Source: a virus. Taken from it: 37,261 nucleotides of DNA. A program made the position numbers and the translations under genes. The notes beneath the pieces were generated by a model. The model saw only the letters and a list, made by a program, of their open reading frames with translations, was not told where the DNA came from and did not search any database. Shown here piece by piece: positions 3,444 through 18,663 of this stretch (position 1 is its first letter; every line of letters begins with the position of its first letter). The stretch covers positions 1 through 37,261 of IMG/VR virus record IMGVR_UViG_3300032323_000746, one strand, 5' to 3'.

Positions 3444-3622
3444 ATACTCAGCAGCCTGCCAAACAACTTCACTACAGGCGACTCCTGCTGTGGCTTAGAC
3501 CCCAGCATAATGTCCTGCACGAACCGCTCTTCCGGTGTGGAGACGCGCTGATAGAACTGCGGGATATAATGCGCGCCAATCTTAGGTGGTTCTTCTCTAA
3601 TAAAGTATCCATCACGTAACAT
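3440..3622 (-). CDS. Small protein of unknown function
   Basis: A 60-residue ORF (begins MLRDGYFIREEPPKI). I chose the ATG at 3622 because AGGAGG precedes it at suitable spacing, rather than the upstream start at 3661. No membrane segment or known motif is seen; the middle has PEERFVQDIMLG. It overlaps the genes on both sides (3612-3622 and 3440-3443), consistent with translational coupling in this compact leftward operon. Confidence 0.6.
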   Translation of the reverse strand: MLRDGYFIREEPPKIGAHYIPQFYQRVSTPEERFVQDIMLGSKPQQESPVVKLFGRLLSI

Positions 3623-3857
3623 CGTCTTTCCTCCTATCTTCATTTGCGCGGCGAGCGTCAACGCCTTTCTTTTTTATCAACGCTACCTCGTCATTAGTAT
3701 AAATCGATTTTCCCACCATAACGTTACCTGCAACCCACACCTCTGCTGAGTAGGCATTGTTCTTGCATGACGGGCACCTGCGTTGCCGCCGTACGCCGCC
3801 TGGCTGCTGCGTGGTGTTGACTACATGGGTCTTAGCGCCGCACTGCTGACATTTCAT
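3612..3857 (-). CDS. Zinc-ribbon protein
   Basis: An 81-residue protein with two Cys pairs, KCQQCGAKTHVVNT at residues 3-6 and RCPSCKNNAY at about 28-31. Together they form a zinc ribbon like the N-terminal part of NrdR or small Ogr/Delta-type phage regulators. The rest (VWVAGNVMVGKS, then a basic tail ARRANEDRRKDD) has no ATP-cone or other recognised domain. DNA binding or transcription control is the likely role by analogy only. Its ATG overlaps the upstream stop (ATGA). Confidence 0.7.
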   Translation of the reverse strand: MKCQQCGAKTHVVNTTQQPGGVRRQRRCPSCKNNAYSAEVWVAGNVMVGKSIYTNDEVALIKKKGVDARRANEDRRKDDVT

Positions 3858-4048: not shown

Positions 4049-4190
4049 CTTCTATCCTTTGTTCAATTTCAGTCACCTTCTCGACAGCCCGCTCAAACGC
4101 CCGCGCCATCTGGTTTAGTTCTTTCTGGCGTATGCGCTCCTCTGCACGGGCGGCAGGCAGCTTCGCCTTCCAGTAATCAAGTCTTTTCAC
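4017..4190 (-). CDS. Small coiled-coil protein of unknown function
   Basis: A 57-residue ORF starting at GTG 4190 (MKRLDYWKAKLPAAR), chosen because GGAGG lies 9 nt upstream; the longer start at 4226 has no such site. The body is a continuous charged helix with heptad-like spacing (AFERAVEKVTEIEQRIEDEK). It overlaps the upstream gene by 14 nt and the downstream gene by 32 nt. No family recognised. Confidence 0.55.
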   Translation of the reverse strand: MKRLDYWKAKLPAARAEERIRQKELNQMARAFERAVEKVTEIEQRIEDEKAKLARPE

Positions 4191-4323
4191 GTTGTTCAGC
4201 CTCCAGCTCACGCAGATCGTTAGCAACGTCAGAGACGCCGTGCCAGTCGCTACGGGCGATCATGACATGCAGGTAGTCGATCAGAATCTCACGCTGCGTC
4301 TCATACTTGGTAAAGTCAGTCAT
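4177..4323 (-). CDS. Small protein of unknown function
   Basis: A 48-residue ORF read directly from the sequence (begins MTDFTKYETQREILIDYLHV, ends AEQREKT). AGGAGG lies 7 nt before the ATG, and the ATG overlaps the stop of the upstream secreted-protein gene (ATGA at 4320-4323). It is acidic and helical with no Cys and no membrane segment. Strong ribosome site plus coupling support a real gene; function unknown. Confidence 0.6.
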   Translation of the reverse strand: MTDFTKYETQREILIDYLHVMIARSDWHGVSDVANDLRELEAEQREKT

Positions 4324-13882: not shown

Positions 13883-14034
13883 AAAGCCCTCCCATGGGTC
13901 TCAATTGTCGGAATTAGGCGCGTCGGTACGGGCACGCGCCGGGTGATATACCGGCCAGTGGCCGGCGGGAAATCTTGCCACTGGATGACGGCGCCAAAGT
14001 CATCCAGCCGGCCATATTGCAGGCGATAGCGCAT
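13876..14034 (-). CDS. 52-residue protein of unknown function
   Basis: ATG at 14034 shares one base with the stop of the gp88-like gene (TGATG), indicating coupled translation. The product begins MRYRLQYGRLDDFGAVIQWQ and has a Pro/Arg-rich C-terminal half (RRVPVPTRLIPTIE). It fills what would otherwise be a 150-bp gap in the operon. No family recognised and no membrane segment. Confidence 0.55.
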   Translation of the reverse strand: MRYRLQYGRLDDFGAVIQWQDFPPATGRYITRRVPVPTRLIPTIETHGRALW

Positions 14035-14786
14035 CAATAATCCCGCCCCTTAATTTGAACGAAACCGCCGGTATCGCGTTTTGCTTTGCCTTTGGCATAC
14101 AAGGCAACGACCACGCCGGCCGGCTCAATATGGCGAACATCGGTGTCGTCGCCGTCAACGACCGGCCACCCGCGAAATTCGGCCGGTATATCGCTCTGCT
14201 TTTGGAATACCACGGCCGCGCGTTTATTGGCCGGATTGATCAGGCCTTTAATTGATATCGGTTTCGGCGTGATAGCGGAAAATGAATACGTCAGATCATA
14301 GTTGCCGGCCGTTTTGCCCGTCAGGTTTCGGCTAGGGTGTTTTGTGTAATCGTAGAATTGCACGTCAGCGAACAATTGGAAAATTGTTTTCCCGTCAATC
14401 AGAATATTTTCAAACGGGATATCTGACGTGCCGTTCGGGCGAACCAAAGGGATCAGGCCAAGCTTTTCCGCACGGCGAGCGTGCGACCATACATCGGCGG
14501 CCATTGATAGCATAAACGCGCGCTGATTCTCGCGGAAAAATGCGGTTTTGGCCGCTCTGGCCGCTTGCACGGCATTAAACGCGCCACGGCCGGCCGATTT
14601 TAGACAGCCGTCGAAACAGCCGGCTAATTGTGCGAACGGACAAAGCTTTTCATCGGGCACTAGGTAGCATATGGCCGTCAAGTAGCCGATCTTTTGGCCT
14701 TTGATTGTTTTAGCGGACGATTCACCTAGAATCGGACGATAGGGTAAGCCTTCGCGTTTGAGCTGGAGTTTGAACGGGTTTTGCAT
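14034..14786 (-). CDS. gp88-like cysteine-containing phage protein
   Basis: A 250-residue protein with a Cys cluster, Cys40, Cys49, Cys57 and Cys61 (LCPFAQLAGCFDGCLKSAGR), a long helix (AARAAKTAFFRENQRAFMLS) and the segment VRPNGTSDIPFEN at about 115-127. I associate this pattern with the phage 'gene product 88'/DUF7227-type families. Their biochemical role is unknown to me; the Cys spacing would suit a metal or iron-sulphur site. AAGGGAACCGACC precedes the ATG, a leader repeated before two other genes of this operon. It is the largest gene of the leftward unit and may be its main effector. Confidence 0.65.
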   Translation of the reverse strand: MQNPFKLQLKREGLPYRPILGESSAKTIKGQKIGYLTAICYLVPDEKLCPFAQLAGCFDGCLKSAGRGAFNAVQAARAAKTAFFRENQRAFMLSMAADVWSHARRAEKLGLIPLVRPNGTSDIPFENILIDGKTIFQLFADVQFYDYTKHPSRNLTGKTAGNYDLTYSFSAITPKPISIKGLINPANKRAAVVFQKQSDIPAEFRGWPVVDGDDTDVRHIEPAGVVVALYAKGKAKRDTGGFVQIKGRDY

Positions 14787-15357: not shown

Positions 15358-15425
15358 GGTCGGTTTCCTTAAGTGATTAAAATTTAGGCAGTAAAATACT
15401 ACATAATGTTTTGCTGCTGAAAACC

Positions 15426-15453
15426 ATTATAGCGACAACAAAATAAATGTCAA
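15426..15453 (-). promoter_or_regulatory. Strong leftward sigma70-like promoter
   Basis: On the minus strand, TTGACA (15453-15448) and TATAAT (15431-15426) are both perfect consensus with a 16-nt spacer. Predicted start near 15419, about 60 nt before the first leftward gene. This is the best promoter match I see in the window. Confidence 0.8.
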
Positions 15454-15569
15454 GGATTGTTTTGCATTTATTTTCGTGTTTTTTGTAGCCGCGTTTGTCA
15501 GTTTGTTGGTAGCGAAAACGGAAGAAAACGCCAACGTGAAAACCCTGACTGAATGCGGCTTTTTGCTAT

Positions 15570-15587
15570 TTGTTGGCTATGTTGGCT
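15570..15587. repeat. Tandem 9-mer pair, inverted copy of the 15690 array
   Basis: TTGTTGGCT followed by ATGTTGGCT. Bases 15571-15587 are the exact reverse complement of 15690-15706, a 17-bp inverted repeat about 100 bp apart. Probably protein-binding half-sites. Confidence 0.75.
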
Positions 15588-15689
15588 GTTTTGTAGACTG
15601 AACCTATATAACTTCATTTTTGATATCATAATGCTAATAGAGTGTACGAATGGCAGCGCTGTCACGTTTGGCCAGCGATTTTAAACCAT

Positions 15690-15716
15690 AGCCAACATAG
15701 CCAACATTGCCAACAT
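15690..15716. repeat. Three tandem 9-bp repeats
   Basis: AGCCAACAT, AGCCAACAT and TGCCAACAT lie head to tail with no spacing. The same 9-mer recurs as part of the palindrome at 15971-15987. Tandem 9-mers of this kind are usual initiator or regulator binding arrays. Confidence 0.75.
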
Positions 15717-15738
15717 AGCAGAATGACAACACATAAAG

Positions 15739-15747
15739 TTATCCACA
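15739..15747 (+). promoter_or_regulatory. Perfect DnaA box
   Basis: TTATCCACA matches the strong Escherichia coli DnaA-binding consensus TTATNCACA exactly. It lies 24 bp before the first iteron, as in DnaA-assisted plasmid and phage origins. Confidence 0.7.
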
Positions 15748-15770
15748 GGTTTGGTAGCATTATGCTAACA

Positions 15771-15893
15771 GTTAGTGACCACTAACCTGTCATGTTAGTG
15801 ACCACTAACTTTGTAAGTGAGTACTCACTAACCTGGTTAGTTAGTGCTTACTAACTTGTTAGGCTGACAACATAAAAGTGAGTGCTCACTAAC
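15771..15893. repeat. Five phased iterons with CACTAAC arms
   Basis: Each iteron is an inverted repeat ending in CACTAAC (TACTAAC in the fourth). Two identical copies of GTTAGTGACCACTAAC lie at 15771-15786 and 15794-15809. The others are at 15813-15832, 15840-15855 and 15874-15893. Centres are 2 nt (first, second, fourth) or 6 nt (third, fifth). The right arms of the first four begin at 15780, 15803, 15826 and 15849, exactly 23 bp apart; the fifth is 38 bp on. Confidence 0.85.
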
Positions 15894-15970
15894 CTGGGGG
15901 GGGTGGGGGCCCGTGGCAGGCCGGTCGCGGTCACGGAGGTGTCAGAAGAAATTTTTTATTTTTTTAAAAA

Positions 15971-16008
15971 ATGTTGGTAGCCAACATTGCCCACAAATGC
16001 GCTAATAT
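15971..16008 (+). promoter_or_regulatory. Palindromic operator and -10 box before the late operon
   Basis: ATGTTGG-TAG-CCAACAT (15971-15987) is a perfect 7-bp inverted repeat that covers the place of a -35 box for the TAATAT at 16003-16008. No TTGACA-like hexamer is present, so a regulator binding the palindrome could activate or repress. Transcription would begin near 16015, the A of the terminase ATG. Confidence 0.5.
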
Positions 16009-16014
16009 GCATCC

Positions 16015-16470
16015 ATGTTCAAATCGATACCATTCTCACCGCGCAAAGTCGAGGCGACCGAAGCCAGGCTTCAGGCCATATATGACGCTGCTGCCTTGGG
16101 TCTGAAGGGCGACTCGCTTGCACTAGCTGCTGGTATGCTGCCCACCGAGTTCAGGCAATTGTGCGAGCTTGACCCGGCAGCGGATATGGCCGCCATGAAG
16201 GGCCGCGCCGACAGCGAGATGGAGGCCAGTGCCCACCTGCGTGAGGCAGCCCGCGCTGGCGACAGCAAGGCGGCGTTAGCTATCTTGCAGCACGCCCACG
16301 GCTGGACAGCGCGTCAGGAGATCAGCGTTGACATCACTAACAAGATCAGCATCACGCAGGCGCTGCAACAAGCACAAGAGCGCGTCTTGGACGGGCTGAT
16401 TACGGAACAGCAACCGGAGTATCTGGAACATGCCACAGCCAAAGAACGCGCTCGCGCCACCGTCGGTTAA
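16015..16470 (+). CDS. terS: Terminase small subunit
   Basis: A 151-residue protein with an N-terminal helix-turn-helix-like segment (IYDAAALGLKGDSLALAAGM) and the DSKAALAILQHAHGWTARQE segment common in phage small terminases. It recognises the packaging site on phage DNA and recruits the large subunit. No ribosome site precedes the ATG, which stands 7 nt after a TAATAT box, so a leaderless start is possible. The next gene overlaps by 41 nt. In P22-type phages the pac site often lies within this gene; I cannot locate it here. Confidence 0.75.
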   Translation: MFKSIPFSPRKVEATEARLQAIYDAAALGLKGDSLALAAGMLPTEFRQLCELDPAADMAAMKGRADSEMEASAHLREAARAGDSKAALAILQHAHGWTARQEISVDITNKISITQALQQAQERVLDGLITEQQPEYLEHATAKERARATVG

Positions 16471-17125
16471 CGTACTGCGTCAAGCAGTCGGTGCCGGCGA
16501 CTACGCCACCACACCCACTACGCCAATACAGACTTACTCGCCGCGCCCCGGCGTGACCTTTGTTGGGCAAGTGCATGGCGAACCCATGACGTTACCCTCC
16601 CGCATTAAGGCAGACGCTGCGCAATACGGCGCGTACTACGAAGGCACGGGCGGCGACAAGCTGCCGGGCGTGTCATACAAAGGATCATGGGACGACGCGG
16701 CGTCTAAGGCGGTCAAAGGCTACCCGTCAGAATTCTTGTTTACGCTGTTCACCAACACGGACGTAAACAAACAGAAAGACATACTGCCTAGCGACAAGAC
16801 GATATTTGACAGCATCTTGGAAAACCAAGACAAGTTCGGGTACTTTAAAGACCGCAAGTTTGATAGCAAGACCTTGGCGACTTTCCTGCAAAACATGGGG
16901 CCGGAATTCTTGCAAGAAGCCCAGCGCCCGGCGTCAAAGGAAAACGTGGCTGCGTTTCTGGATAGAGGCGAGCGCGACATGTGGGAGTCTGACGACACGC
17001 CCGCACGCCAGATGGCCAACAAAGCCAACGAGTACCGTCAACGCTGGTTGCTGTCGCAGCCCAAAGGCGTGTACTTTATAGGTTCCGACCACCTGCAAGA
17101 CTTGAAACGACTGCAAGGTAAATAA
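16430..17125 (+). CDS. Protein of unknown function between terminase subunits
   Basis: A 231-residue ORF that overlaps terS by 41 nt and shares one base with terL (TAATG). It is soluble and of mixed composition, with a disordered Pro/Thr-rich start (TPTTPIQTYSPRPG), a middle rich in Lys/Asp/Phe (DKFGYFKDRKFDSKTLATF) and a C-terminal helix (MANKANEYRQRWLLSQ). No nuclease, HTH or membrane motif is seen. Its place suggests a role in packaging or terminase assembly. It has no counterpart in P22 that I know. Confidence 0.7.
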   Translation: MPQPKNALAPPSVNVLRQAVGAGDYATTPTTPIQTYSPRPGVTFVGQVHGEPMTLPSRIKADAAQYGAYYEGTGGDKLPGVSYKGSWDDAASKAVKGYPSEFLFTLFTNTDVNKQKDILPSDKTIFDSILENQDKFGYFKDRKFDSKTLATFLQNMGPEFLQEAQRPASKENVAAFLDRGERDMWESDDTPARQMANKANEYRQRWLLSQPKGVYFIGSDHLQDLKRLQGK

Positions 17126-18663
17126 TGGCGCAACAGCCGATCTATGACGCCGAGGGCGAGCAGCTCCTAATGACGCGCCTTTGGGCGCCGACCATCGCTG
17201 ACGACCCCGAGGCGTTCGTGTTGTTCGCGTTCCCGTGGGGGCAGGCGAACACACCGCTGGCCAAGTTCAAAGGCCCGCGCACCTGGCAGCGCAAGATACT
17301 GCGCAGGATAGCCAGCCACATCCGAAACAACCGAGGTCAGATCGACATGGACGCGCTGCGTACTGCGGTCGCGTCCGGTCGAGGCATCGGTAAGTCGGCT
17401 CTGGTTAGCTGGCTCATCTTGTGGATGCTGACCACCCGCATCGGCTCCTCCGTAATCGTGAGCGCCAACAGTGAAGCGCAGCTGCGCTCAGTGACCTGGG
17501 GTGAGCTGACCAAGTGGCAGGCGATGGTGATTAACAACCACTGGTGGGAGATCAGCGCAACGAAACTGATCCCAGCTAAGTGGTTAACTGAACTGGTCGA
17601 GCGGGACTTGAAGAAAGGTACGCGCTACTGGGCAGCCGAGGGCAAGCTGTGGTCGGAAGAGAATCCGGACAGCTACGCGGGTGTGCACAACCACGACGGC
17701 ATGATGCTGATCTTTGACGAAGCGTCCGGTATTCCAGACGGCATCTGGTCGGTCGGTGCGGGCTTCTTTACAGAACCCATTTTAGACCGGTACTGGTTCG
17801 CGTTCAGTAACCCCCGGCGTAATCAAGGCTACTTCTACGAGTGCTTCCACGCCAAGCGTAACTTCTGGCACACGGAGAACATTGACTCCCGAACGGTCGA
17901 GGACACGGACAAGCAGATATATGAGCAGATCATTGCGGAGTATGGCGAGGATTCGCCACAGGCTAGGGTTGAGGTCTACGGTGAATTCCCATCGGCTGGC
18001 GAAGATCAGTTTATTGGTGCGTCTGCTGTCGACGATGCCGCCCAAAGGCCACGCTACAAGGACGAGACGGCGCCAATTGTTGTCGGCGTTGACCCAGCTC
18101 GCGGCGGCGCGGACGCAACCGTCATCGTCGTCCGGCAAGGACGGGATCTAATTGCGATCAAGCGGTACCACGGCGAGGACACCATGACAACAGTAGGCCG
18201 GGTGATTGACGCCATCGAAGAGTACCGCCCGGCACTGACGGTGATCGACGAAGGTGGTCTGGGCTACGGGGTACTTGACAGGCTAAAAGAACAGCGTTAC
18301 AAGGTGCGGGGAGTGAACTTCGGATGGAAGTCGAGCAAGCCTGTTATGTGGGGCAACAAGCGTGCTGAGATGTGGGGCGCGATGCGGGACTGGTTGAAAA
18401 CAGCCAGCATCCCTAACGATAGGCAGCTAAAAGCCGACCTGACTGGCCCGATGAAGAAGCCCGACTCGTCGGGAACAATCTATCTGGAAGGCAAGAAAGA
18501 GATGAAGTCGCGTGGCCTAGCCTCACCTGACGCAGCCGACGCGCTGGCAGTGACGTTCGCGTTCCCGGTAGCTGCCCGTGAATCAAGCTACGAACGGGCG
18601 GCACGGTCAACTCCGCGAGGGTACCAGCAGACGACAGTAGCAACTGGATGGATGGGGCACTAA
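17125..18663 (+). CDS. terL: Terminase large subunit
   Basis: A 512-residue packaging motor. ATPase Walker A is SGRGIGKSA (84-92) and Walker B MLIFDEAS (Asp198, Glu199). The nuclease domain has VGVDPARGGAD (Asp323), TVIDEGG (Asp375) and SPDAADAL (Asp469, Asp472), the acidic triad of RNase H-fold terminase nucleases. It pumps DNA into the prohead through the portal (19517) and cuts the concatemer. Complete, with all catalytic residues present. Headful cutting is inferred from the P22-like setting and circular assembly. Confidence 0.95.
   Translation: MAQQPIYDAEGEQLLMTRLWAPTIADDPEAFVLFAFPWGQANTPLAKFKGPRTWQRKILRRIASHIRNNRGQIDMDALRTAVASGRGIGKSALVSWLILWMLTTRIGSSVIVSANSEAQLRSVTWGELTKWQAMVINNHWWEISATKLIPAKWLTELVERDLKKGTRYWAAEGKLWSEENPDSYAGVHNHDGMMLIFDEASGIPDGIWSVGAGFFTEPILDRYWFAFSNPRRNQGYFYECFHAKRNFWHTENIDSRTVEDTDKQIYEQIIAEYGEDSPQARVEVYGEFPSAGEDQFIGASAVDDAAQRPRYKDETAPIVVGVDPARGGADATVIVVRQGRDLIAIKRYHGEDTMTTVGRVIDAIEEYRPALTVIDEGGLGYGVLDRLKEQRYKVRGVNFGWKSSKPVMWGNKRAEMWGAMRDWLKTASIPNDRQLKADLTGPMKKPDSSGTIYLEGKKEMKSRGLASPDAADALAVTFAFPVAARESSYERAARSTPRGYQQTTVATGWMGH

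Follow-up and report, generated by a model that had tools for sequence, protein, structure and literature searches.

A candidate pac-type packaging-initiation region with a separate palindrome array upstream of the terminase genes of a P22-like phage

Iteron origins of replication such as P1 oriR and RK2 oriV combine a DnaA box, repeats placed about two helical turns apart, and an A/T-rich stretch. Few phages have a known packaging start site, and recognition of pac by the small terminase subunit (TerS) is hard to demonstrate in vitro. In the Bacillus phage SPP1, a headful packager, several contacts within pac flank the site of the first cut by the large terminase subunit (TerL), and in P22 pac is a 22-bp asymmetric sequence within the TerS gene (PMC9611059). 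The locus described here can be compared with each of these. Like P1 oriR and RK2 oriV, it has a DnaA box by a repeat array of about two-turn spacing and an A/T-rich stretch; unlike them, its array is independent of the replication protein, its spacing is not conserved, and its A/T stretch lies in a terminase-linked core. It resembles SPP1 pac in having several putative contacts on either side of a proposed TerL cut site, but the sequences differ, and the site has a G-tract/CACGGAGG/A-T core linked to TerL as well as an extra palindrome array and a DnaA box. The likeness to P22/Sf6 headful packaging lies in a P22-type portal and coat and in TerL, which is 37-40% identical to P22-like and epsilon15-like TerLs, the nearest isolate TerLs in the phage collection; unlike P22 pac, the site is outside the TerS gene. 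We put the probability at about 0.58 that this interval is the pac-type packaging-initiation control region of a P22-like lytic phage, just upstream of its terminase genes. On this reading, the region is organized like SPP1 pac.

We analyzed a stretch of 37,261 nt (the window), a phage genome assembled as a circle, with a terminal repeat of 123 bp. Its head genes are P22-type (portal PF16510, coat PF11651), and its replication genes encode PolA, a DUF5906/RepB-type primase, an exonuclease, and an SNF2-type helicase. No close cultured relative was present in the phage collection. The head genes and the affinity of TerL to P22-like and epsilon15-like enzymes make headful packaging the default expectation. 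The interval 15358-16014 is flanked by small leftward genes on one side and, on the other, by a rightward cluster that begins with a probable TerS and TerL. An earlier note, made from the letters of the window, had singled out a gene-free stretch here as a candidate replication origin; the stretch is real, strongly conserved, and correctly placed. The note had listed the DnaA box, the palindromic repeats, and the A/T run, and had overlooked the G-tract element, the 9-mer repeats, and the leftward promoter. No tRNA and no intrinsic terminator were found in the region. From left to right, the interval holds the leftward promoter, inverted 9-mers, three direct 9-mers, the DnaA box, five palindromes, the G-tract element, the A/T run, and two further 9-mers; these and the two terminase genes are as follows.

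15426-15453, minus strand: putative sigma70-type promoter TTGACA-16-TATAAT (12/12 consensus match), upstream of the small leftward genes
15571-15587, minus strand: two inverted 9-mers, AGCCAACATAGCCAACA on the minus strand; 17 nt, 100% complementary to 15690-15706
15689-15715, plus strand: three tandem 9-mers, TAGCCAACA / TAGCCAACA / TTGCCAACA; candidate TerS contacts left of the core
15739-15747, plus strand: DnaA box TTATCCACA, the sole TTATNCACA in the window
15771-15786, unstranded: palindrome 1, GTTAGTGACCACTAAC, a 16-mer
15794-15809, unstranded: palindrome 2, GTTAGTGACCACTAAC, a 16-mer
15813-15832, unstranded: palindrome 3, GTAAGTGAGTACTCACTAAC, two 16-mers offset by 4 bp
15836-15855, unstranded: palindrome 4, GTTAGTTAGTGCTTACTAAC, which fits the 20-bp form GTTAGTNAGTGCTNACTAAC
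15878-15893, unstranded: palindrome 5, GTGAGTGCTCACTAAC, adjoining the core
15892-15968, plus strand: core of about 75 nt (G-tract, GGGCC, spacer, CACGGAGG, A/T run), the proposed packaging-initiation site
15896-15909, plus strand: G-tract GGGGGGGGTGGGGG, the conserved G-rich start of the core
15949-15972, unstranded: A/T-only run of 24 nt at the right end of the core
15978-15995, plus strand: two 9-mers, TAGCCAACA / TTGCCCACA, right of the core
16015-16470, plus strand: probable TerS (151 aa), directly upstream of TerL
17125-18663, plus strand: TerL (512 aa), matching phrog_2 terminase large subunit (E 4e-44)

The product of 16015-16470 had no match in PHROG, Pfam, or NCBIfam. It is 33% identical over 72 aa (E 5e-4) to a protein of locus L178 that matches the PHROG terminase small subunit, and from its position and this distant similarity it is probably TerS. 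A gene of unknown function at 16430-17125 (plus strand) lies between TerS and TerL in the window and upstream of TerS in L076, L100-L104, and L106, and appears to move between phages.

To compare the region among relatives, we used the primase and the protein encoded at 16430 as queries. These retrieved 118 related viral loci, from which the region upstream of TerS was extracted as 70 distinct sequences, window included. The part from the G-tract to the A/T run is conserved farthest, even in relatives with a primase just 54-60% identical. We searched a profile of this core in all loci and in 80 more added via TerL alignment. It lies upstream of TerL, in the same orientation, in 134 of 134 TerL-bearing loci (138 distinct core-bearing loci, related by descent and unweighted), at a distance of -4 to 2391 nt (median 620) from a TerL that is 57-100% identical to that of the window. 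Strong matches number at most one per locus, with one in each of eight whole genomes searched and one in the window.

The core is also present in six loci (L178, L180, L187, L202, L208, and L211) whose TerL is 77-79% identical to that of the window and in which the window-type primase and polymerase are absent from the ~8-10 kb upstream. Other replication modules take their place, namely Prim-Pol/DUF3987 in L202, Toprim/AAA_25 in L211, and Prim-Pol/AAA_25 in L178. TerS is swapped too (Sf6-type, PF20901, in L202 and PHROG 309 in L178), such that the core is kept with three TerS types. In L174, L175, and L178, the core adjoins TerL, and TerS is to its left. Conversely, the core had no match in 11 primase-bearing contigs where a related TerL was not found (L037, L040, L053, L054, L055, L058, L068, L070, L073, L074, and L077), several of which are short, so that a core may lie beyond their ends. 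Because the core is kept upstream of TerL through exchange of both the replication module and TerS, we conclude that it stays with TerL. The AT-only stretch of the earlier note is present, but it belongs to this TerL-linked core, which survives replacement of the replication module.

Two other identities for the core were considered and rejected: an RNA element, for which we found no consensus structure and no Rfam match, and a coding sequence, which is ruled out by gaps and by the variable length of the G-tract. In the first 190 bases of L098, a reading frame resembling AP2/HNH proteins, read from the sequence, stops a short way before the A/T run, at the place expected for the G-tract. TerL relatives 79% and 71% identical occur on short bacterial-MAG contigs (L130 and L131, respectively), which are probably co-binned phage DNA.

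The short repeats beside the core appear to follow the TerS family instead. Tandem CCNACA 9-mers near the core were found in 53 of 100 loci with a window-type TerS and in 0 of 26 with an Sf6-type TerS, while CCCANTGGG palindromes were found near the core in 21 of the 26 and in none of the 100 (Fisher tests, 1e-7 for the 9-mers and 2e-19 for CCCANTGGG, phylogeny not being controlled). Both kinds of repeat occur on either side of the core; among loci with a TerS at least 75% identical, 33 of 52 have tandem 9-mers downstream of it. If the core tracks TerL and the side repeats track the TerS family, the part read by each terminase subunit can be predicted at the level of sequence.

The palindromes are a separate terminase-associated element that follows neither TerS nor the primase. 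Their 16-mers start at 15771, 15794, 15817, 15840, and 15878 in the window. A search with up to two mismatches returned 13 matches, 11 of them inside the array, where 0.36 were expected, and this number was never attained in 100 shuffles; the array is far above chance. The five CACTAAC iterons reported previously correspond to these five palindromes, with the exception that the right arm of the fourth is TACTAAC. Both reported layouts of the centers, GTTAGTG-AC-CACTAAC (center 2) and GTNAGTGAGTRCTCACTAAC (two 16-mers with a 4-bp offset), were borne out, as was the 23-bp distance between right arms at 15780, 15803, 15826, and 15849; the fifth right arm is at 15887. The suggestion that this phase stacks a protein on one face of the helix does not extend to the family. 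Spacing in relatives is most often 23-24 bp but also 26-30 and 37-40 bp, and hence one-face stacking is not conserved.

Two or more palindromes are found in 40 of the 70 upstream regions. In the same loci, GTNAGTnnnnACTNAC has 251 copies in 110 kb around the core, always to its left, versus 2 in 1.45 Mb elsewhere; where TerS is of another type, six of the matches, lying at about -310 to -390, are a different motif. L202, which has neither the primase or polymerase of the window nor its type of TerS, retains two genuine copies (GTTAGTCAGTGCTCACTAAC). By contrast, palindromes are lost or replaced in L071, whose TerS and primase (C-terminal two-thirds available) are 94-100% identical to those of palindrome-bearing L091 and L095. 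The palindromes are therefore not sites for the primase of the window phage, and the comparison of L071 with L091 and L095 rules out TerS and the primase alike as their binder. Homologs of the 7903 protein and of the small leftward proteins, also put forward as binders in the earlier note, were not found in the stretch of L202 searched (~21.5 of 37 kb).

A scan of viral contigs for GTTAGTNAGTGCTNACTAAC gave at least 120 stretches. We examined 74 such loci, of which 39 belong to the family of the window and 35, forming 17 groups, lie outside it. In at least 7 of these 17 groups, a TerL of another kind lies ~0.35-1.5 kb downstream of the 20-bp palindrome in matching orientation, a count of positives and not an unbiased rate, as large neighboring genes were hand-picked for testing. 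In L391, three copies 24 bp apart precede an Sf6-type TerS. That one palindrome precedes unrelated terminases suggests that these phages have a factor in common. A separate observation concerns an 81-aa, NrdR-like zinc-ribbon protein encoded at 3612-3857 (minus strand; PF22811, just over the gathering score), which is found in the palindrome-bearing genomes compared and is 38% identical in G007; it is a possible DNA-binding regulator and a weak candidate for the palindrome binder.

How far, then, does the origin proposed in the earlier note account for this arrangement? Host DnaA would bind at 15739, an initiator would occupy the palindromes, and the A/T run would melt. The perfect DnaA box is there, next to the repeats, and the array with its A/T run resembles theta origins. 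A single copy of the box is not above chance, with at least one in 58 of 100 shuffles; it is conservation, not mere presence, that matters, and the box is the one origin-like feature with strong conservation. TTATCCACA occurs within the extracted 1 kb in 37 of 40 palindrome-bearing loci, has 38 copies in 63 kb beside the core versus 2 in 953 kb elsewhere in the same (related) loci, and is found also in L182 and in the replication-swapped L208 and L211. A repeat array plus a DnaA box does not, however, by itself make an origin. The A/T run is part of the TerL-linked element, the palindromes are replaced in L071 with the same primase and retained in L202 with another, and no Rep-type initiator gene for the repeats was recognized besides the primase. 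The 23-bp phase of the window becomes 23 to 40 bp in relatives, and cumulative GC skew, suggested as a check on the origin, shows no turn at 15.7 kb, its detrended extremes being at 3.3 and 29.3 kb (weak evidence). What stands of the proposal is a selected control region with a conserved DnaA box; an origin as such we consider unlikely, but it is possible that one site serves replication and packaging, with an overlapping origin. A cos site, at which the core would be cut to give fixed staggered ends, could explain why a G+C-rich and A/T-rich element lies upstream of the terminase genes and accompanies TerL whatever the TerS. We find it quite unlikely, as the head module is P22-type, most contigs continue across the core, and the few ends nearby lie at different places. 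Contig ends were discarded as evidence for cos because breaks near the array differ in position and one contig folds back, which looks like an assembly effect.

The palindromes invite two further explanations. They may be operators at which a regulator controls the terminase/head operon and the divergent leftward genes, an unlikely alternative that fits the divergent promoter region and the same palindrome upstream of unrelated TerS-TerL genes. Nevertheless, a promoter scan found no rightward promoter, the core also precedes TerL or other genes with no fixed gene start, and a gene-content search found no protein common to five or more palindrome-bearing groups, among contigs that are partial. 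Alternatively, the palindromes might recruit the host division inhibitor SlmA, many phage copies blocking FtsZ-ring assembly or SlmA acting as a tether or activator. The E. coli SlmA consensus GTGAGTACTCAC (PMC3116907) is matched exactly once, by the inner 12-mer of palindrome 3 (15817-15828), and the palindrome at 15878 is one base off. In E. coli cells expressing SlmA, tandem SlmA sites in multicopy block division (PMC3573117). In one sampled bacterial order, 30 of 38 genomes have an SlmA that passes the family cut-off, and such a binder would account for palindromes common to unrelated phages. But the match is a post hoc one, random palindromic 12-mers fit the arrays equally well in 0.25% of cases, and known motifs are many. 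Most copies deviate from the consensus, the phage palindromes are longer than enterobacterial SlmA sites (16/20 bp) and tandem, and SlmA-type sites are not enriched over a reversed-pattern control in the sampled order, which may not be that of the host. The exact 20-bp palindrome was present in 0 of 369 and 0 of 392 bacterial genomes searched (class and order of one MAG; the sets overlap and may not be those of the host), so a host binder, if any, does not use this 20-mer as a mark on its own chromosome, at least in the taxon sampled. We regard SlmA binding as a speculative lead only and as distinctly doubtful. More doubtful still is the wider proposal that a 20-bp palindrome array, common to unrelated aquatic phages and placed ahead of their terminase genes, is bound by a host protein, possibly the nucleoid-occlusion factor SlmA; if true, replicating or packaging-ready phage DNA would recruit a division inhibitor, coupling division arrest or DNA positioning to packaging.

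We therefore return to packaging initiation. The best-conserved part of the region stays with the packaging motor genes and not with the replication genes, and hence is most likely a packaging start site; it is near the terminase genes, in fixed orientation, and present once per genome. As to recognition by TerS, the flanking repeats follow the TerS family yet the 9-mers drift even among phages whose TerS proteins are almost the same. We suggest that TerS binds the short repeats flanking the core and that the first cut, by TerL, falls in the core or close to it. Packaging would then run rightward into the terminase and head genes and terminate by headful. The palindromes would be bound by a factor other than TerS or the primase, and through the DnaA box the site may also serve in replication or timing. 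Against packaging, the genes concerned form linked genome blocks, and an origin that needs host factors only, placed beside TerL, could also remain after primase exchange. The conserved DnaA box has no explanation in packaging, and a check of the DNA upstream of P22-like and epsilon15 terminases did not find the core.

Several minor observations concern the surroundings of the array. The first 120 bases of G001 (the contig of L004) are an inverted copy of its own end, with the break inside palindrome 1, and this start is probably a fold-back artifact. At 14034-14786 (minus strand) and at equivalent sites in relatives, there are GP88-like cysteine-rich genes or genes of another cysteine-rich family; in several phages, some of them from groups whose terminases are unrelated, these genes run divergently from the array. 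A 48-aa ORF at 4177-4323 (minus strand) is 77-98% identical in the seven palindrome-bearing genomes compared (98% in six), a conservation above that of most neighboring genes, and was not found in G007. Finally, upstream of TerS in L017, L018, L061, and L071, there are outward-facing parS-like halves, CGTGRAACA ... TGTTTCACG, with the gap present or absent, which lie beside or in place of the CACTAAC palindromes.
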